Shown: positions 1 through 9,034 of the stretch, in pieces
How positions within the stretch are numbered: position 1 is the stretch's first letter
Layout of the letters: every line of letters starts with the position of its first letter
Assembly (NCBI GenBank): GCA_013214355.1
Contig: JABSSL010000001.1
Location: 24,404 to 88,403 of the forward strand
Length of the DNA stretch: 64,000 bases
Source: Saprospiraceae bacterium
GTDB lineage: Bacteria; Bacteroidota; Bacteroidia; Chitinophagales; Saprospiraceae
Direction of reading: 5' to 3'
Notes under the pieces: model-generated
The model's database searches: none
The model's input: only the letters and a program-made list of their open reading frames with translations
What the model was told of the DNA's origin: nothing
Translations under genes and position numbers: made by a program

Positions 1-3000
1 AGCGATCCCATTGACGTTAGACTAAGCGGACAAATGGGTAGCAATTCCGCATGGGTAATCACGGATGACGCAGGAAATATCTTAGCATTACCTCCAGCTC
101 CACCATTTGACTTGGAAGGTGCAGGTGAAGGCGTTTGCCTAATCTGGTATCTACGTCATGATGGGGCAATTGACGGCCTCGAAATGGGTAATAATGCCAA
201 CGATCTCCGCGGCTGCTTTGATCTATCCAACCCCATCACCGTATATCGTGATGGTGTGGATGGTGGACATTTGACTACCGCAGGTGGAATGACCGAGAAA
301 ACCATATGTGCCGGTGATGGCGAATCTGATGCTTTTGGCGTGAATTTGACCGGAGTAGTCGGAGCAAATTCTGCTTGGGTAATTACGGATGATGCTTTAA
401 ACATATTAGCACTACCACCAGCTCCACCTTTCGATCTAGAAGGCGCAGGCCCAGGTACTTGCTTGATCTGGCACTTGAGTTTCGAAGATGGATTGATGGG
501 CGCGGCCGTAGGCATGAACGCAGCAGACTTGGATGGATGCTACGATCTTTCGAATCCAATTACAGTATACCGCCAAACTGGTGATGATTGTGACATGACT
601 TGTGATGTAGACGGAGGACATTTGACTACCTCCGGTGGAATGACTGAGAAAACAATCTGTGCCGGTGATGGCGAATCGGATGCCTTTGATGTGATGGTAA
701 CAGGACAATCTAGTCCTAGTTCTGCTTGGGTCATCACCGATGATGCAGGTAATATCCTTGCACTACCTCCTGCTCCACCTTTTGATCTAGAAGGCGCAGG
801 CCCAGGTACTTGCTTAATCTGGTATCTAGCCTTTGACGGAGAAATCACAGGGGCAGAAGTAGGAATGAATGCAGCGAACCTACAGGGTTGCTACGATCTT
901 TCTAACCCAATTACGGTATACCGTGAAACAGGGATAGATTGTGAAAATTGCAATGTAGACGGTGGATATATTTCTGATCGCTGGCTAAGAACTCAGCGCG
1001 TAATCTGTGCAGGTGATGGCACAAGCGATCCCATTGACGTTAGGTTAAGCGGACAAACGGGAAGCAACTCTGCCTGGGTAATCACGGATGACGCAGGAAA
1101 TATCTTAGCATTACCTCCAGCTCCACCATTTGATCTAGAAGGCGCAGGTCCTGGTACTTGCCTGATCTGGCACTTAAGCTACGACGGCATGATCAGTGGC
1201 GCGGAAGTAGGTATGAATGCCGCTGACCTGGAAGGATGCTATGACCTATCAAATCCATTTACTGTTTACCGAAATGGTGTGAATGGTGGTACCATTAGCA
1301 CCAATGATCCTACGCACATCTGTGCCGGTGATGGACAGGGTGATCCCATTGATGTATCTGTCGAAGGTGCTGAAGGACCCTACTCAGCTTGGGTTATCAC
1401 AGATGACGCAGGAAATATCTTAGCATTACCTCCAGCTCCACCATTTGACTTGGAAGGTGCAGGTGAAGGCGTTTGTCTGATCTGGTATGTACGCCATGAT
1501 GGAGCAATTGACGGCCTCGAAATGGGTAATAATGCCAACGATCTCCGCGGCTGCTTTGATCTATCCAACCCTATTACCGTATATCGTGACGGTGTGGATG
1601 GTGGACATTTGACTACCGCAGGTGGAATGACCGAGAAGACGATCTGCGCTGGTGATGGTTTTTCTGATGCCTTTGGCGTGAACTTGACCGGAGCAACAGG
1701 CGCGAATTCCGCTTGGGTGATTACTGACGATGCACTGAATATCTTGGCACTACCACCAGCTCCACCTTTCGATCTAGAAGGCGCAGGCCCAGGTACGTGC
1801 TTGATCTGGCACTTGAGTTTCGAAGATGGATTGATGGGCGCGGCCGTAGGCATGAACGCGGCTGATTTGGATGGATGCTACGATCTTTCTAATCCAATTA
1901 CCGTATACCGCCAAACTGGTGATGATTGTGACATGACTTGTGATGTAAGCGGAGGACATTTGACTACTTCCGGTGGCATGACCGAGAAAACAATCTGTGC
2001 CGGTGATGGCGAATCTGATGCCTTTGATGTAATCATTAGTGGCCAATCCAGCAGCAATTCTGCTTGGGTGATTACTGATGATGCCCTTAATATCTTGGCA
2101 CTACCTCCAGCTCCACCTTTCGATCTAGAAGGTGCTGGTGATGGTACGTGCTTGATCTGGTACCTGGCCTATGATGGAGAGATCATGGGGGCAGAAGTTG
2201 GAAAGAATGCAGCTGACTTAGCAGGTTGCCTTGAACTATCAAATCCGATCACAGTATACAGAAATGGAGTAGATGGTGGACACCTTACCACGGCAGGTGG
2301 TATGACCGAAAAAACCATCTGCGCAGGAGATGGCGAATCTGATGCCTTTGACATTAGTTTGAGTGGTGTTTCCGGTGCTAACTCTGCCTGGGTCATTACT
2401 GATGATGCCTTGAACATCTTGGCTTTGCCTCCAGCTCCACCATTTGATTTGGAAGGCGCAGGTGCGGGTACTTGCTTGATCTGGCACTTGAGTTTTGAAG
2501 ATGGATTGATGGGCGCGGCCGTAGGTATGAACGCGGCTGATTTGGATGGATGCTACGATCTTTCGAATCCGATCACAGTATACCGTGAAACTGGAGAAGA
2601 CTGTGAGACTACCTGTGACGTAGACGGTGGACACATTTATACCAATGACGCTACTACTATCTGCGCAGGTGATGGAGAAGATGATTTCGTTGATGTAAAC
2701 TTGAGCGGTGCCGATGGCCAGAACTCCGCATGGGTAATCACTGATAATGACGGATATATTCTTGCCTTACCAGCGGCTCCACCATTCAACTTCGAAGGCG
2801 CAGGTGCAGGTATATGTCTAATCTGGCACTTGAGTTTTGATGGAGAAATTAGTGGCGCGGAAGTAGGTGCCAACGCGGCAGACTTGGAAGGTTGCTACGA
2901 ATTGTCAAACTCTATCAAAGTGGTAAGAAGAACCTCTGGTCACGCTTGTGGACGCTACAATAACAATAGCCACAGCTTGACGGTAGATCTTGCACCAAAC

Positions 3001-3234
3001 CCAGTGAGCAGTGACCTACGAGTAGACATCACTATCGGTGAAGGTGGAAACTTCCGAACCAGCTCAATCGAAATCTTGACGGCTGTAGGCCGTAGAGTAT
3101 TCCGTAGAACAGAAGCAACTTACGATGGCGATAACCGAGTAAACATTAATGTATCGGATCTTCAGCCTGGCGTATACTTCTTACGTGTAAGAAATGGCAG
3201 CCAGCGCGAAGTTGTTCGCTTCGTAAAACAATGA
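1..3234 (+). CDS. Repetitive T9SS-exported cell-surface protein, 5' partial
   Basis: The reading frame is already open at base 1 and the first ATG (34) lies inside a module, so the gene starts upstream of the window. The visible 1077 residues hold nine copies of a module that begins SAWVITDD.xNILALPPAPPF and continues with GAG.GTCLIW, a GM/NNAADL..GCYDLSN stretch and ITVYR. Linkers between copies carry DGGHLTT and ICAGDG. Each module has two conserved Cys plus one in ICAGDG, which would suit disulfides in an exported protein. The last ~85 residues (from about base 2985) form a Por/T9SS C-terminal sorting domain (APNPVSS ... LQPGVYFLRV ... RFVKQ), so I infer export across the outer membrane and cleavage or surface attachment. 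The function of the modules is unknown to me; adhesion or a structural surface role is a guess. Confidence 0.85.
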   Translation, partial: SDPIDVRLSGQMGSNSAWVITDDAGNILALPPAPPFDLEGAGEGVCLIWYLRHDGAIDGLEMGNNANDLRGCFDLSNPITVYRDGVDGGHLTTAGGMTEKTICAGDGESDAFGVNLTGVVGANSAWVITDDALNILALPPAPPFDLEGAGPGTCLIWHLSFEDGLMGAAVGMNAADLDGCYDLSNPITVYRQTGDDCDMTCDVDGGHLTTSGGMTEKTICAGDGESDAFDVMVTGQSSPSSAWVITDDAGNILALPPAPPFDLEGAGPGTCLIWYLAFDGEITGAEVGMNAANLQGCYDLSNPITVYRETGIDCENCNVDGGYISDRWLRTQRVICAGDGTSDPIDVRLSGQTGSNSAWVITDDAGNILALPPAPPFDLEGAGPGTCLIWHLSYDGMISGAEVGMNAADLEGCYDLSNPFTVYRNGVNGGTISTNDPTHICAGDGQGDPIDVSVEGAEGPYSAWVITDDAGNILALPPAPPFDLEGAGEGVCLIWYVRHDGAIDGLEMGNNANDLRGCFDLSNPITVYRDGVDGGHLTTAGGMTEKTICAGDGFSDAFGVNLTGATGANSAWVITDDALNILALPPAPPFDLEGAGPGTCLIWHLSFEDGLMGAAVGMNAADLDGCYDLSNPITVYRQTGDDCDMTCDVSGGHLTTSGGMTEKTICAGDGESDAFDVIISGQSSSNSAWVITDDALNILALPPAPPFDLEGAGDGTCLIWYLAYDGEIMGAEVGKNAADLAGCLELSNPITVYRNGVDGGHLTTAGGMTEKTICAGDGESDAFDISLSGVSGANSAWVITDDALNILALPPAPPFDLEGAGAGTCLIWHLSFEDGLMGAAVGMNAADLDGCYDLSNPITVYRETGEDCETTCDVDGGHIYTNDATTICAGDGEDDFVDVNLSGADGQNSAWVITDNDGYILALPAAPPFNFEGAGAGICLIWHLSFDGEISGAEVGANAADLEGCYELSNSIKVVRRTSGHACGRYNNNSHSLTVDLAPNPVSSDLRVDITIGEGGNFRTSSIEILTAVGRRVFRRTEATYDGDNRVNINVSDLQPGVYFLRVRNGSQREVVRFVKQ
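46..2940 (+). repeat. Nine tandem coding modules, 315-351 bp each, with a higher-order duplication
   Basis: Modules start (first codon of SAW) at 46, 370, 721, 1069, 1384, 1708, 2059, 2383 and 2725. Period lengths are 324, 351, 348, 315, 324, 351, 324 and 342 bp. Modules 1-2 and modules 5-6 are nearly identical at the nucleotide level with a constant offset of 1338 bp, which suggests duplication of a block of modules. The last module (2725) is the most divergent (DNDGYILALPAAPPF). Confidence 0.9.
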
Positions 3235-3361: not shown

Positions 3362-3390
3362 GCCCGCCTCTTCGGAGGCGGGCTTTTTTA
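3362..3390 (+). terminator. Intrinsic terminator of the repeat protein gene
   Basis: A perfect 9-bp GC-rich stem (3362-3370 with 3375-3383) closed by a TTCG tetraloop is followed by seven T. It lies 127 bp after the stop codon of the upstream gene. This is the clearest rho-independent terminator in the window. Confidence 0.92.
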
Positions 3391-3542
3391 TTTCCCCTCC
3401 TACCAAGCTCCTCTAAGCCCTTCACCCATCCTTACCAAATATACAGTCAGACCTACCAAGTGTTCAGTGCTCATTGTAACCCAAGCAAAAAGCCAATAGA
3501 CTTGTACTCAAGAAATGCAATTAACAACAAAAGATACAAGTC
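3391..3542. other. Intergenic stretch before the TlpA-like gene
   Basis: Together with the terminator and trailer (3235-3390) this makes a 308-bp gene-free gap. I see no coding frame, RNA gene or strict TAnnTTTG box in it. The sequence just before the ATG at 3543 is A-rich with no Shine-Dalgarno motif, which is usual for Bacteroidota. Confidence 0.5.
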
Positions 3543-4661
3543 ATGAAAAACATCAAATTTATCCTTTTCGCACTCTTATTATTCCCCCTGCTTTCCGCAC
3601 ATGGCCAACAAGTAGAGCAAATAGTACAACAATACAAAAACGCGCTTTCTACTATCGAATCTATTGATTGTAAAGTGGAACAACTCGACACCTTTGTAAG
3701 CGGACACGTTTGGCACTATCACGGACAATTGGCCATGCTCCGCAAGCCATCCGATGCGCTGTTCGGTTTTCAATTCAAAGCTTCAAAAACAGTGGGTGGT
3801 GAAGCCTTATACGATGGCTTATCCGAATTCCAAATCGACCATAAAGCCAAGTCTTACGAATTAAACACCATGCCACAATCCTATATCACCGGTTCTCCAG
3901 GTGGTCAGCTCGTAGTACCGGAACTAATGAACTACCAAGATGAAGAAACCACGCCTGAATTACAGCAAAATGAGCAATACTTCATTCTTCGCTATCAATA
4001 CCCAGATTTAGAAGAATACGATGTACGCCAGCGAGAGAAGAAAATTTTCCTAGACAAGACCACTTTCTTACCTGCTAAAGTCATTGAACGTCAAGTATCA
4101 CTGGACAAAAAGCAAGTTATGACTCGAATCATTACCGACGTAACACTGAATAAGCCAGAACACCTGCAAGCCTTTGTAAAGAACTTCTTGGAGGATTACA
4201 AGGTGGAGATAGAAGAATCAGACGAAAATATCCATGAACACCTCCTACAAACTCAGGTGAAGGATTTCCAGCTAGAAACCTTTACCGGGCGGAACATTTC
4301 AACCCGACCATCAGCATCTAAAGTGTTGTTGCTCGACTTTTGGGAAGTGTGGTGTGGTCCTTGCGTACAGTCTATGCCTAAAGTTCAAGCATTGGCAGAC
4401 AAGTATGAAGATGAAGGCTTGGAGGTTATTGCAGTATTGATGGATAAAAACAGCCAAGACAGCGCTGAAAAGTTACTCAAAAAGAAAGGAATCGATCTCA
4501 TACAGGCTTTTGGTAACCAGGATATCCGAGAATATTTCAGGGTTCTAGGCATTCCACAATATGTCTTGATTGATGGAGAAGGTACCATCCGAAAGATCTA
4601 TCAAGGCTATCATAAAAGAATGGAAAAAGAAGTGCAATCTCTATTGGCAGAAGTTAAATAG
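3543..4661 (+). CDS. TlpA-family thiol-disulfide protein with N-terminal LolA-like domain
   Basis: A 372-residue protein with a signal peptide (about residues 1-21, ending AHGQ). Residues ~25-225 look like the LolA/LolB-type or DUF2092-like fold found before thioredoxin domains in Bacteroidota. Residues ~235-372 are a TlpA-like thioredoxin domain with the redox motif WCGPC at 270-274 (Cys271, Cys274) and the cis-Pro region GIPQYVLID near the end. It should act in the periplasm as a thiol reductase or disulfide exchanger; its partner is unknown. It is followed by a small secreted protein and by a sensor kinase whose extracellular part resembles a cysteine-less relative of this family, so a shared pathway is plausible. 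The start ATG at 3543 gives an ideal signal peptide. Confidence 0.85.
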   Translation: MKNIKFILFALLLFPLLSAHGQQVEQIVQQYKNALSTIESIDCKVEQLDTFVSGHVWHYHGQLAMLRKPSDALFGFQFKASKTVGGEALYDGLSEFQIDHKAKSYELNTMPQSYITGSPGGQLVVPELMNYQDEETTPELQQNEQYFILRYQYPDLEEYDVRQREKKIFLDKTTFLPAKVIERQVSLDKKQVMTRIITDVTLNKPEHLQAFVKNFLEDYKVEIEESDENIHEHLLQTQVKDFQLETFTGRNISTRPSASKVLLLDFWEVWCGPCVQSMPKVQALADKYEDEGLEVIAVLMDKNSQDSAEKLLKKKGIDLIQAFGNQDIREYFRVLGIPQYVLIDGEGTIRKIYQGYHKRMEKEVQSLLAEVK

Positions 4662-4707
4662 TCTAATACACCTAAAACCCTTATTCACACTTAAAAAGTT
4701 AAGAAAG

Positions 4708-5412
4708 ATGAACACCAAAGCAATCAGCATCCTCATTCTTTTCATCACTATGACTTTAGCCACCCTGCAAGCCCAGGAGGTAAGACCCGATGGAAGACTT
4801 CAGCTCTTGAAGGAGGACAGCCAAAACAGCTACGAGTCCAATAGCATTACCAATTTAGATCTGCTCCAGGCCCTAGATTTTGCTGGTATCCAAATCAAAA
4901 AATTTAATCTAGGTGAATTCCAGGAACGATACCAGCTCCATTTAATCACCGAAACCTACAAAGATGATAAAGTAGTAAAGACCGACACGATTTTCTCCGG
5001 AGATAATAGATATCACCATTTCCAGGCCGGTGAAGAAGATTATTTTTACGACTACCTTGACCAACTGAAATTCATCACCAAAGACGATGATAGCAAGAGT
5101 GAAATTCGATTACACACCTATGCCATGTCGACGAAGTTCAAGATAGAACTTGAGAAATGGGATGATCGCCAGTTTTACAATTGGCGCTCTTTCGGCGAAA
5201 CAACGTGGAAACTCAACAAAAAGGTACCTTTAATGGTCTTTGCTTCTTCTTGGGAAGACAAACACTACAACTTCCATCGCTTCTGCGGAACCGTCATTCT
5301 AGAAGAAGGAGAAGAAGGGACAGAAGAGCTCTTGCAAGAATCACCTACTTATGTACTCATTAGTTATATTGTTACGCCCATGCCCGTTACCGATGAAGAA
5401 AATGGTGATTAA
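4708..5412 (+). CDS. Secreted protein of unknown function
   Basis: The open frame extends upstream to 4570 inside the previous gene, but the ATG at 4708 gives a clean signal peptide (MNTKAISILILFITMTLA..LQAQ) and a 46-bp gap, so I use it. The mature part (about 210 residues) is acidic and aromatic-rich, with no Cys pair and no motif I recognise. It includes a segment KDDKVVKTDTIFSGDNRYHHF and ends in an acidic tail. Its position between a TlpA-like thioredoxin and a LytS-type kinase, all in one direction with short gaps, suggests an operon and a possible periplasmic accessory role. That role is inferred from context only. Confidence 0.7.
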   Translation: MNTKAISILILFITMTLATLQAQEVRPDGRLQLLKEDSQNSYESNSITNLDLLQALDFAGIQIKKFNLGEFQERYQLHLITETYKDDKVVKTDTIFSGDNRYHHFQAGEEDYFYDYLDQLKFITKDDDSKSEIRLHTYAMSTKFKIELEKWDDRQFYNWRSFGETTWKLNKKVPLMVFASSWEDKHYNFHRFCGTVILEEGEEGTEELLQESPTYVLISYIVTPMPVTDEENGD

Positions 5413-5465
5413 TGAAGGCCATTTAAAACTACCGAACCGGAGCGTTTACAAGTTTATCAACAAGC

Positions 5466-8285
5466 ATGCTAATCATGATTAGGACATTATGGGGTTTCCT
5501 CTTCTTGACCTTAAGTACAATTATGGTATCTGGTCAGTCTGTAGAGGAATCCCTACGTACGGGGGACAGCCTGGAGATAGAGTGGATTCAACAAAGACAT
5601 CTATCTAAAAATGGATCGATAGCAGGTAGCTATCCACTGTTCCCTGATCAATTAAAGGCTGGAGAATATGATATGCGGATAGGTCTTAGGCTATTCAAGG
5701 ATGCTAAGGCAGGGTTAAGCGCTAGAGTTACCCACATCAGTTATATTGAATTGCCTCCCTTAGCACAAGGTTCAACTTATGCTACAGCGGCAAAAATCAG
5801 TCAACCCATTTTCCTGGATACGCGCTTTCAAGATGCTTATTTCAACCCACAGCTGTTCCTTTTTGATGCGCTTTTGCAGCATGATTTCCCCATCTCTTGT
5901 AAGCCCGAAGTCATCAGTGAATCTCTATCCAATTTTTCCAAAAAAATCAATCAACTTCTTCCTTCCTCTGGCCTGATAGATGCTCAGGTAGAATGGTTGC
6001 AAGAAACAGAACTATCTGAGGTATTTAGCTCAACATCTTTAAGTCACTTCTTCTGTGAACTATTACAGCAGGAGATTCCTGAGATGGAGACTCCAATTCG
6101 CCTCACCGCTCGGAAGGCGACCTCTCATTCCTACATAGACTTTTGGGAAGTAAATCTGCCAGCTCGTATGTGTGTTCTTCGTGGCCAAATACAGAATCAG
6201 GCTACCGAAGAAGTCAGAGTCAAATACTTCCGAGAAGGAGACTGGCCCTCCTATTGGCGGGATAGTCTGATACGATTGGATGAGAATGGTCTTTTTGAAC
6301 TGGCTTTTCCATTAGATAGGCGACGCATAGTTTCGGTTTTTCATGGCTACCAGACGATGCGCTTCTACGTAGAGCCAGGAGATACGCTTGCGTTTCAAAC
6401 GGATGCCAACACCTTTTATCGAGCCATGTCCTACGAGGGAAAGGGAGCCGCCGACAACCAATTCCTCTTGGACTTTTATCATGAAATGCGCGGGGACACC
6501 CTATTTAGTAGTTACGATTTTAACTTGCTAGAAAAGGAACCTAAGCCCTACTTCGACAAGATAGAAGCTAAGAAAAAAAGCGAATTAACCTTCTTAGAAG
6601 GCTACCAATCGAATGTTCGTCCAGAATTACTGTCCCACATGGATCGGTACATTCGCATAGAACACGCCTCCAAACAATGGGAAGCTGCCTACCGGTTTAT
6701 CATAGAAGGAAACATTGAGCTAGAGCGCAAATTGATTCAGTATTTACAATCGCTCGGATCCCTCCTATATAGACTCCCCAAAGACAGAACCTTCGATTTT
6801 GATGTAGAAGAATTCTTAGCCTTACAATACTACCTACTGACCCAAAACTATCAAGCTAGTGAACTAAACAGCTCAAAGGAGTTGCATCTAGCCCAACTTC
6901 TCCTGGGCAAAGAGACTTTCGTACGACACACGGCTATGCAGTTATTCCGATTTCATGAGGAATACGATCAACTTACTCGTAGCCGGGAATTCCAGCTGGA
7001 TCAACTTTTATCCATCACCAGAGATTCTCAACTCATCGAGGAATTGTTAGTTTTCACTCGAGAAAAAAAGGATCGAACTCCGCCGGTTGGATATAGAATA
7101 CTAATTACTGGCAAACCAGCACCAGCATGGAGTTTCGTTGATCGGGAAAGTGTTAGGGTAAGCCTAGAGGACTTTAGAGGAAAACAATTATTGCTGCACA
7201 TCGGCTGGGAAGATCTCTTAGACCTAGCCGTCGCTGACCTTGATACCCTAAAAGCGCAATCGGAAGTACTCCCTACAATTGTCCATTTAGTTACAGCGCC
7301 AAGCAAAGAGCAATTCAGTCGCAGTATAGCGGGAAAAGAAGGCCTATTTGTCTACGTACCACCGGAAGACATGGCTAAACTCCGAGAGGACTACCGAGTG
7401 GATAACCGCACGAACCACTATTTCTTAATTGATGAAGAGGGGAATGTCCTCGCCAACAATAGGGCAATGGGTACCGCTCAAAAGATGAGAGGTACCTGGG
7501 GTAAACTGGCAAAACAAACCGCCTCGAAAGCCTGGACGCCCGAACAGCGCCTGCAGTTTTGGCAAAGCCTGGGGATCGGAGCACTTATCTTGCTATTGAT
7601 CAGCAGTTTGATCCTCTGGCAGAGACGAATTAGTATGCGGCGTGATCAGCGGCGGCGGCAGTTACTAGAGGTGGAACTGAGAGGTATCCGCTCGCAGATG
7701 AATCCACATTTTCTTTTTAATGCTATGAGTTCCATTCAAAATCTCATTCGGAAAAAGGAGCAGGAAAAAGCAGATATCTACCTAGGTCAATTCGCTGGTT
7801 TGATGCGTAAGACCCTGCGAAATACAGCGGAAGAATATATTCCTCTAAGCGATGAAATTGACATGCTGGAACAATACTGTAGCCTCGAAAGCCTCCGTCA
7901 CCCCTTTAGCTACGAGTTTCAACTGGATGAAAGGGTTGATGTACATAATACCTATATACCAAGTATGATCCTGCAACCCATCATTGAAAATGCGATTATC
8001 CATGGCCTTAGCCCATTAACCGAAGCGCGCCAACTAATTGTCAAGATCTCCCCTAGCCCTTCCGGCTTATATTGTCAGGTGATGGATAATGGGGTGGGCA
8101 TACTAGCAGCACAGGCTCATGTGCAGGATAAGGAACGTAAAAGTTACGGCATGAAGCTAGTTCGCCAGCGCCTAGATTTACTAGGTCTAAATAGTGATAA
8201 ACACTTCAGCATTCAAGACCGCAGCCAACTTCAACCTCCTAGCCAAGGAACCCTTGTAACCTTAACTATTCCGACAGAACAATGA
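5466..8285 (+). CDS. LytS-type sensor histidine kinase with TlpA-like, cysteine-less extracellular region
   Basis: A 939-residue protein. The start is at 5466 or, equally likely, at the ATG at 5475; both give a signal peptide or first membrane segment ending near VSGQS. Residues ~235-340 resemble the DUF4369-type beta domain of Bacteroidota TlpA reductases (RGQIQNQ ... FYVEPGDTLAF ... GKGAADNQFLLDF). Residues ~545-680 resemble an AhpC/TlpA thioredoxin fold (ITGKPAPAWSF ... SLEDFRGKQLLLHIGW ... YFLIDEEGNVLANNRA), but the WCxxC position reads IGWEDLLDLA (about 579-588), with no Cys. A membrane helix lies at ~700-720. The kinase core follows: a His_kinase (LytS) box QMNPHFLF with His748, and an HATPase N-box QPIIENAIIHG with Asn842, then NGVGI and GTLVTLTIP. 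It overlaps the response regulator gene by 4 bp, so the two are translationally coupled. Confidence 0.88.
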   Translation: MLIMIRTLWGFLFLTLSTIMVSGQSVEESLRTGDSLEIEWIQQRHLSKNGSIAGSYPLFPDQLKAGEYDMRIGLRLFKDAKAGLSARVTHISYIELPPLAQGSTYATAAKISQPIFLDTRFQDAYFNPQLFLFDALLQHDFPISCKPEVISESLSNFSKKINQLLPSSGLIDAQVEWLQETELSEVFSSTSLSHFFCELLQQEIPEMETPIRLTARKATSHSYIDFWEVNLPARMCVLRGQIQNQATEEVRVKYFREGDWPSYWRDSLIRLDENGLFELAFPLDRRRIVSVFHGYQTMRFYVEPGDTLAFQTDANTFYRAMSYEGKGAADNQFLLDFYHEMRGDTLFSSYDFNLLEKEPKPYFDKIEAKKKSELTFLEGYQSNVRPELLSHMDRYIRIEHASKQWEAAYRFIIEGNIELERKLIQYLQSLGSLLYRLPKDRTFDFDVEEFLALQYYLLTQNYQASELNSSKELHLAQLLLGKETFVRHTAMQLFRFHEEYDQLTRSREFQLDQLLSITRDSQLIEELLVFTREKKDRTPPVGYRILITGKPAPAWSFVDRESVRVSLEDFRGKQLLLHIGWEDLLDLAVADLDTLKAQSEVLPTIVHLVTAPSKEQFSRSIAGKEGLFVYVPPEDMAKLREDYRVDNRTNHYFLIDEEGNVLANNRAMGTAQKMRGTWGKLAKQTASKAWTPEQRLQFWQSLGIGALILLLISSLILWQRRISMRRDQRRRQLLEVELRGIRSQMNPHFLFNAMSSIQNLIRKKEQEKADIYLGQFAGLMRKTLRNTAEEYIPLSDEIDMLEQYCSLESLRHPFSYEFQLDERVDVHNTYIPSMILQPIIENAIIHGLSPLTEARQLIVKISPSPSGLYCQVMDNGVGILAAQAHVQDKERKSYGMKLVRQRLDLLGLNSDKHFSIQDRSQLQPPSQGTLVTLTIPTEQ

Positions 8286-9034
8286 GTAATATCCGTGCCC
8301 TAATTGTTGATGACGAAGCGAACAACCGAGAAAACCTTCGTCTTGCCTTAGAAAGCTATTGTAAAGAAGTGGAGGTGGTCGGTGAGGCCGACTCAGCCAT
8401 GACCGCCATGGATCAGATTAAAGCGCTAAAACCTGCCCTGGTCTTTCTGGATATTGCTATGCCGATGGGTAGCGGTTTTGATTTGCTAGAAAGTCTGCCG
8501 CAAATTGATTTTGACATCATCTTCGTAACAGCCTATGATCAATATGCGATCCGGGCTATTAAATTCGCCGCCGTCGACTATCTCCTTAAGCCCATTAATG
8601 CTTTAGAATTAAAGAAGGCAGTAGATCGGGTAGTGAACAAACAGCTGCAACAAAACCAAAAAGATCAGTTGGAAACCTTACTACACAACTTGCAGCAACA
8701 AGAAAAGAAAATTGCCCTACCACAATCCGATCACATCGAATTCGTAGCGGTCAACAACATCATCCGCTGCCAAGGCGATCGGAACTATACGCACTTCTTC
8801 CTCAAGGATGGACGGAAACTGCTCGTCTCCCGCACGCTCAAGGAATACGTAGCCCTACTGGAAGAACAATCCTTCTACCGAGTACATCAATCTCACCTAG
8901 TAAACCTCAACTACATCCAGAAATACAGTAAAAGAGATGGCGGACTACTAATCACTGCTGACAATGCCAAAATTCCAGTAGCCCGCGCCCGAAAGGAGCA
9001 ACTATTAGCTCGACTGATGGAAAGGGATCAATAG
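8282..9034 (+). CDS. LytTR-family response regulator
   Basis: A 250-residue protein with a receiver domain (residues ~4-120: acidic pair DDE at 10-12, phospho-acceptor Asp57 in VFLDIAMP, Thr83 in FVTAY, Lys103 in LLKPI) and a C-terminal LytTR DNA-binding domain (~150-248: HIEFVAVNNIIRCQGDRNYTHF, LVSRTLKEY, FYRVHQSHLVNLNYI). It starts on the ATGA overlap with the kinase gene and is almost certainly that kinase's partner. Targets are not visible; the neighbouring TlpA/secreted-protein genes are candidates. It ends 1 bp before the convergent S41 protease gene. Confidence 0.95.
   Translation: MSNIRALIVDDEANNRENLRLALESYCKEVEVVGEADSAMTAMDQIKALKPALVFLDIAMPMGSGFDLLESLPQIDFDIIFVTAYDQYAIRAIKFAAVDYLLKPINALELKKAVDRVVNKQLQQNQKDQLETLLHNLQQQEKKIALPQSDHIEFVAVNNIIRCQGDRNYTHFFLKDGRKLLVSRTLKEYVALLEEQSFYRVHQSHLVNLNYIQKYSKRDGGLLITADNAKIPVARARKEQLLARLMERDQ

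Follow-up and report, generated by a model that had tools for sequence, protein, structure and literature searches.

A LytS-type sensor kinase with a cysteine-less TlpA-like ectodomain, encoded near a TlpA-type reductase in a Saprospiraceae genome

The gene at position 5466 of the window, i.e. the whole 64,000-nucleotide stretch of Saprospiraceae DNA analysed here, encodes a LytS-type sensor histidine kinase whose periplasmic part is related to TlpA-type thiol-disulfide reductases. The kinase ectodomain (residues ~229–690) is a complete DUF4369 plus helical plus thioredoxin module, collinear with intact Bacteroidota TlpA, and judging from its sequence it lacks the cysteines of a classical disulfide reductase mechanism. 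The kinase with its redox-dead TlpA receptor looks like an undescribed sensor type, and a distinct one because cysteine-free sister sensors are found in other bacteria; a search of the open-licence PubMed Central literature gave no paper that brings these features together. The reading we consider probable is that of a dedicated two-component operon, in which a catalytically dead TlpA would be the periplasmic receptor and the LytS/LytTR pathway behind it would regulate the very operon that encodes it together with the reductase.

Bacteroidota genomes contain dozens of LytS/LytTR systems, few of which have a known signal. The host genome (11.2 Mb; near relatives are Saprospiraceae and Lewinella) has 77 LytS-type matches. 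A dead envelope enzyme that acts as a sensor and shares one apparently self-regulated operon with an active member of its superfamily would offer a concrete route to the signal, namely through what the reductase touches. The system also appears to be a clear enzyme-to-receptor case: the cysteines are lost in four kinase groups, and the former active site is rebuilt differently from group to group.

The initial annotation had placed four genes in this region, and all four are found at those positions. The protein between reductase and kinase is secreted, as had been suggested, and shows a match to DUF5041, and the LytTR regulator is coupled downstream, with a 4 bp overlap between the regulator and kinase genes. 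The features are as follows.

3362–3391, + strand: predicted intrinsic terminator of the upstream gene (GC-rich stem 3362–3383, T run)
3434–3463, + strand: putative LytTR operator, direct repeats ACCAAATAT (3434–3442) and ACCAAGTGT (3455–3463) separated by 12 bp
3474–3504, + strand: putative Bacteroidota-type promoter TTG-N20-TAGACTTG, 10 bp past the second repeat
3543–4661, + strand: secreted TlpA-type thiol-disulfide reductase, 372 aa (Redoxin 1e-14, AhpC-TSA 4.5e-13)
4708–5412, + strand: secreted 234-aa protein with DUF5041 (PF16444, E 3.5e-10)
5466–8285, + strand: LytS-type sensor histidine kinase (PF06580), 939 aa, with signal peptide and one transmembrane segment (~698–720)
5538–6119, + strand: kinase residues 25–218, extracellular N-region, fast-evolving (10 of 194 positions invariant)
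6120–6500, + strand: kinase residues 219–345, DUF4369-like domain (hhalign E 5.5e-25 to intact TlpA)
6501–7085, + strand: kinase residues 346–540, helical linker; aligns collinearly with that of TlpA (profile alignments, model)
7086–7556, + strand: kinase residues 541–697, thioredoxin-like domain without cysteines (hhalign 7.3e-14; Foldseek, VIA)
7197–7229, + strand: H578-IGWEDLLDLA-588, site of the lost WCxxC (alignments to TlpA)
7284–7286, + strand: His607, invariant in group A (alignments)
7404–7418, + strand: N647-RTN-H651, found where TlpA has its cis-Pro loop; all group A members share Asn647, Asn650 and His651
7674–8282, + strand: cytoplasmic kinase core, predicted phospho-acceptor His748 (NPHFLFN), HATPase boxes intact
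8282–9034, + strand: LytTR response regulator, 250 aa (Response_reg 3.5e-22, LytTR 2.8e-16)

Upstream of the operon, at 34–3234 of the window, lies a gene for a surface protein with many near-identical ~100-aa repeats (NSAWVITDDAGNILALPPAPPFDLEGAG) and a C-terminal sorting-type domain; a repeat gene resembling it stands upstream of the operon in L038 as well.

The DUF4369-plus-thioredoxin layout originally proposed for the sensor is borne out by profile comparison. Six orthologous ectodomains aligned with 15 intact DUF4369-TlpA proteins in a single collinear profile–profile alignment of 439 columns (probability 99.9, E 6.5e-36), and controls with reversed and shuffled columns were at background (probability <0.5). 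Unrelated LytS ectodomains of the same survey scored a probability <15 against TlpA. In profile–profile comparison the parts also match intact DUF4369-TlpA by themselves, the DUF4369-like part at 5.5e-25, the helical linker at 4e-4 and the thioredoxin part at 6e-12; aligned with the TlpA thioredoxin domain by hhalign, that of the kinase gives 7.3e-14 over 144 columns. When 199 relatives were searched with the ectodomain, the matches included orthologues of full length as well as numerous proteins of ~480 aa that align to residues 230–684, and those of the latter whose sequences were examined are TlpA-type proteins with WCxxC.

Searches with DUF4369 and AhpC-TSA models had been recommended, and their outcome is divided: profile–profile comparison matches the DUF4369-like part to intact DUF4369-TlpA at 5.5e-25, but Pfam models gave sub-threshold matches only (Redoxin at E 0.064 on the kinase ectodomain; DUF4369, PF14289, in two of six orthologues, best E 8.8e-4). 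Structure prediction followed by a fold search points to a thioredoxin fold of the TlpA type in the C-terminal part. The AlphaFold model, made from four sequences, is of low confidence (pLDDT 52.8); the first matches of its C-terminal domain are Bacteroides TlpA, ResA and DsbE domains, and the match to 4grf has a Foldseek E of 8.9e-6 and, by VIA, a Z of 9.9 with rmsd 3.2 over 106 residues. The N-region of the kinase gave no hhalign signal against the reductase N-domain or the DUF5041 protein.

The cytoplasmic part is that of a LytS-type kinase, with a His_kinase domain (PF06580, 5.3e-21) carrying NPHF..N, and HATPase boxes, although the Pfam HATPase_c match is weak. Residues H748, N842, D874, G876 and G878 of the core are invariant. 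The product of 8282–9034 has the receiver and LytTR domains of a LytTR response regulator, and its phospho-acceptor is probably Asp57.

An intact TlpA-type reductase had been noted two genes upstream of the kinase, and this stands as regards the active site: the secreted thioredoxin domain has WCGPC at 270–274 (Cys271, Cys274) and IPQ at 337–339, and thus both the CxxC and the cis-Pro of the TlpA type. It does not hold for the remainder of the protein, which has no DUF4369 and an N-domain of another kind (residues ~19–216), predicted to be LolA/LppX-like. The model of this N-domain (pLDDT 52.5) matches LppX with a Z of 10.6 (145 residues), LprF with 10.2 and LprG with 9.6 (162 residues), all lipid-binding lipoproteins with a LolA-like fold; its sequence has no match in Pfam or PDB. 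The N-domain occurs in five genomes among 120 relatives, and four of these carry the kinase. For the DUF5041 protein there is no solved relative by sequence, and among 149 relatives DUF5041 was not found outside the operon copies.

That the neighbouring reductase gave rise to the kinase module was considered and is rejected: the ectodomain matches DUF4369-TlpA at 6.5e-36 vs. a probability of 12 for the neighbour (64 with the thioredoxin part alone). Since the reductase N-domain, predicted to be LolA/LppX-like, is not a DUF4369, the kinase module descends, on these comparisons, from DUF4369-TlpA.

The sensor family consists of four groups. Group A comprises eight genomes (window, L037, L038, L032/L152, L153, L154, L036 and L053), group B four (L115, from the same genome as the window, L163, L159 and L167, whose contig holds the kinase core only), group C two (L164, L161) and group D two, from another family of the class (L185, L186). 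In a tree of ectodomains all the kinases fall together on one side of the branch that separates them from TlpA (90/94), which fits one old kinase fusion. The kinase-core tree does not group them, but a single clade is not rejected (p-AU 0.10). The ectodomain profile alone, searched against 395 genomes of the class with four candidates scored per genome, returned stand-alone TlpA and no further fusions; a joined thioredoxin–transmembrane–kinase profile gave two further fusions, G518 and G199, which were confirmed. Four other candidates from the joined profile were checked and are background.

Of the related kinases, 15 have an ectodomain that can be read, and CxxC is absent from every one of them; it is present in 17 of 17 TlpA compared. 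Alignment to TlpA places IGWEDLLDLA (residues 579–588) where WCxxC belongs, as first reported, and the suggestion that the redox fold was kept while the chemistry was lost is consistent across every related kinase compared. H578 occupies the column in which most TlpA carry Asp, directly before WCxxC; in E. coli thioredoxin this residue is Asp26, which is buried. The cis-proline is replaced by Asn and then His in group A, is retained in groups B and C and is absent in D. In all eight group A members the three histidines of the thioredoxin domain are invariant (26 of 157 positions are), with His607 on the next central strand and His651 after the cis-Pro position.

These residues bring in the main rival explanation, a remodelled ligand or metal site. 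The ectodomain would bind a small molecule or metal, in group A within a pocket to which His578, His607 and His651 contribute the lining, and the reductase would be an output gene only. The three histidines sit at positions of the former redox site, as such a pocket would have it, but their nearness to one another is taken from the general geometry of thioredoxins, and the set is missing from groups B and D, with group C retaining the His607 position only. This explanation is tentative and seems to us rather unlikely. A more specific form, in which the group A active site was rebuilt as a three-His metal or cofactor site, making the protein a periplasmic metal/redox-cofactor sensor in control of a TlpA reductase that resembles lipid carriers, is doubtful.

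The order reductase–(DUF5041)–kinase–LytTR is found in seven of the eight group A genomes with differing flanking genes, and the DUF5041 gene is absent from two of these seven loci (it is present in five of eight overall). Conservation of gene order with a TlpA gene, which was to be looked for in homologues, is evident, and the paralogue L115 adjoins another intact TlpA. The exception in group A is G047 (L053), whose kinase has no adjacent reductase of the 3543 type. Group B has an intact TlpA neighbour of a different type in two of four loci and none in the other two, and no TlpA neighbour was found in group C and D loci. Pairing of kinase and TlpA thus holds for most of group A, but not as a strict rule. 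In the loci read, nine of 16 such kinases have an intact thioredoxin-type gene two or fewer genes away; for LytS kinases of other kinds the figure is four of 24 (p 0.015, Fisher test), as counted by hand, with kinship ignored and with loci partly picked by kinase-core similarity. Neither outcome named beforehand as contrary to the proposal, i.e. no thioredoxin- or DUF4369-like fold, or no co-occurrence with a TlpA gene, was encountered.

The loci where the kinase stands without this reductase (G047) or without any TlpA neighbour (groups C and D, and half of group B) mean that contact with an adjacent reductase is no general need of this sensor type. Sensing of a partner or substrate is plausible in group A, and groups C and D do not require it; the lack of a TlpA neighbour in C and D favours a small-molecule or metal ligand. 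The same loci count against another explanation, in which the sensor would pair with the adjacent reductase's thioredoxin domain as a pseudo-heterodimer and so report on how much of the enzyme there is or on its redox state, free or oxidised reductase switching the kinase. Adjacency in seven of eight group A loci, and in two of four in group B with its different TlpA type, would agree with such a pair. TlpA-type domains are usually monomeric, which also speaks against it, and we think it improbable.

Upstream of the reductase gene, a terminator-like hairpin (stem of nine pairs at 3362–3383, eight of them GC, followed by TTTTTT) is predicted to close the upstream gene and isolate the operon, and terminator-like sites as a class show no enrichment over shuffles. 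Beyond it, the block ACCAAATAT-12 bp-ACCAAGTGT-10 bp-TTG-N20-TAGACTTG (3434–3504) is conserved in five genomes. Each of the five has one such putative operator site, before the operon, and none elsewhere at three or fewer mismatches; a backward control of the pattern gave no sites. This single conserved site per genome before this promoter suggests a dedicated, self-regulated operon. The arrangement TTG-N20-TAGnnTTG stands upstream of all eight group A operons, the promoter being retained and the repeat weaker in the more distant ones. The Bacteroidota promoter consensus is TTTG/TAnnTTTG. Groups B and C have CCA-N18-CCA at similar places, which lends modest support, with a chance expectation of 1–6% per region. 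RNA elements were looked for and none was found. By sequence, the putative operator has the paired direct repeats ~21 bp apart at a target promoter that are characteristic of LytTR regulators. In published LytTR operons, which are autoregulated, the repeats are 9 bp long, usually with a gap of 12 bp between them, and show a strong bias towards a position 10 bp upstream of the promoter (PMC6193735). The LRS systems share with the operon here, which would be auto-regulatory as they are, the 9-bp direct repeats, 12-bp spacing and ~10 bp distance to the promoter, but in LRS a membrane inhibitor replaces the kinase, whereas the operon here has an intact kinase and receiver domain (PMC6193735).

Chance adjacency would mean that a usual LytS/LytTR system, its ectodomain drifting, happens to lie beside a reductase. 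It can draw on TlpA genes that also adjoin some LytS kinases whose ectodomains are unrelated (L155, L053, L116/L168), but the retained gene order across several genomic contexts, the conserved operator–promoter before the first gene, the 4 bp overlap and the constrained ectodomain (in its DUF4369 and thioredoxin parts 17–18% of positions do not vary) make it very improbable indeed.

For the reading of a dedicated operon with a dead TlpA as receptor, comparison shows the fold, the cysteine loss, the conserved operon and the conserved operator–promoter arrangement. A periplasmic ligand or partner might dock on the remodelled former active-site face of the ectodomain; as a guess, it would most likely be a substrate or binding partner of the reductase encoded alongside, and the nature of the signal, like any contact with the reductase, belongs to this guesswork. 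Binding would act through the single transmembrane segment to change the state of the dimeric LytS kinase, His748 would be phosphorylated and the phosphate passed to Asp57 of the regulator. The regulator would then bind the 9-12-9 bp repeat before the operon's own promoter and switch on reductase, DUF5041 protein and sensor in positive feedback.

Comparison with known systems shows partial likenesses. DUF4369-TlpA oxidoreductases of Bacteroidota, such as Bacteroides BVU_2223 (PDB 4grf), have the same order of DUF4369, helical linker and thioredoxin fold; unlike these, the kinase has no CxxC, and no cis-Pro in group A, and its module is fused to a transmembrane segment and kinase and preceded by an extra N-region of ~195 residues. 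LytS (PF06580)/LytTR systems such as BtsS/BtsR have in common the His_kinase and HATPase core and the adjacent LytTR regulator. BtsS-like sensors have multi-TM input domains; unlike BtsS, the kinase here begins with a signal peptide and exposes ~670 residues to the periplasm, among them the pseudo-TlpA receptor. The SasA/KaiB-like input domain is a thioredoxin-like fold without a redox role on a histidine kinase, and to this extent resembles the kinase here. It is cytoplasmic, has a clock-protein partner and is not of TlpA descent.

Several other loci of the survey deserve mention. L115:3411–9309 (G000:C205), in the window's own genome, is a second operon of this type, with a kinase that has a Cys-less TlpA ectodomain, after it an intact DUF4369-TlpA (CGPC), a CarboxypepD_reg-like protein and a LytTR regulator. 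The TlpA frame has 376 codons stop to stop and 364 from the first ATG, and a signal peptide does not fit; the genome yielded no more than three DUF4369 proteins, of which this TlpA is one. In G047, ~4 kb downstream, there is an operon of intact TlpA (564 aa), LytS kinase (899 aa) and LytTR regulator (L053:8771–13941), the kinase having an unrelated ectodomain with repeated G-x-W segments. L155:4666–8723 (G616) has an intact DUF4369-TlpA (CGPC), a LytS kinase (688 aa, unrelated ectodomain) and a LytTR regulator. LytS kinase, LytTR regulator and a double thioredoxin protein (CNHC and WCGPC) are found in L116:3552–8492, from the window's own genome, and in L168:4334–9212 (G002). In L165:4171–9132 the gene after a LytTR regulator and LytS kinase carries GCFWC, a motif typical of MsrA (methionine sulfoxide reductase). 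L157 and L158 (G590:C3 and C2) have two tandem LytS kinases with LytTR, in nearly identical copies on two contigs of one genome. DUF4369/TlpA-like proteins of ~950–1800 aa with one terminal CxxC domain are encoded in L041, L042, L043, L044, L045 and L046, and a ~391-aa gene with LRGVSA(T/A/S)K near its start adjoins these large genes in L041, L043, L044 and L046, and is also present in L010.
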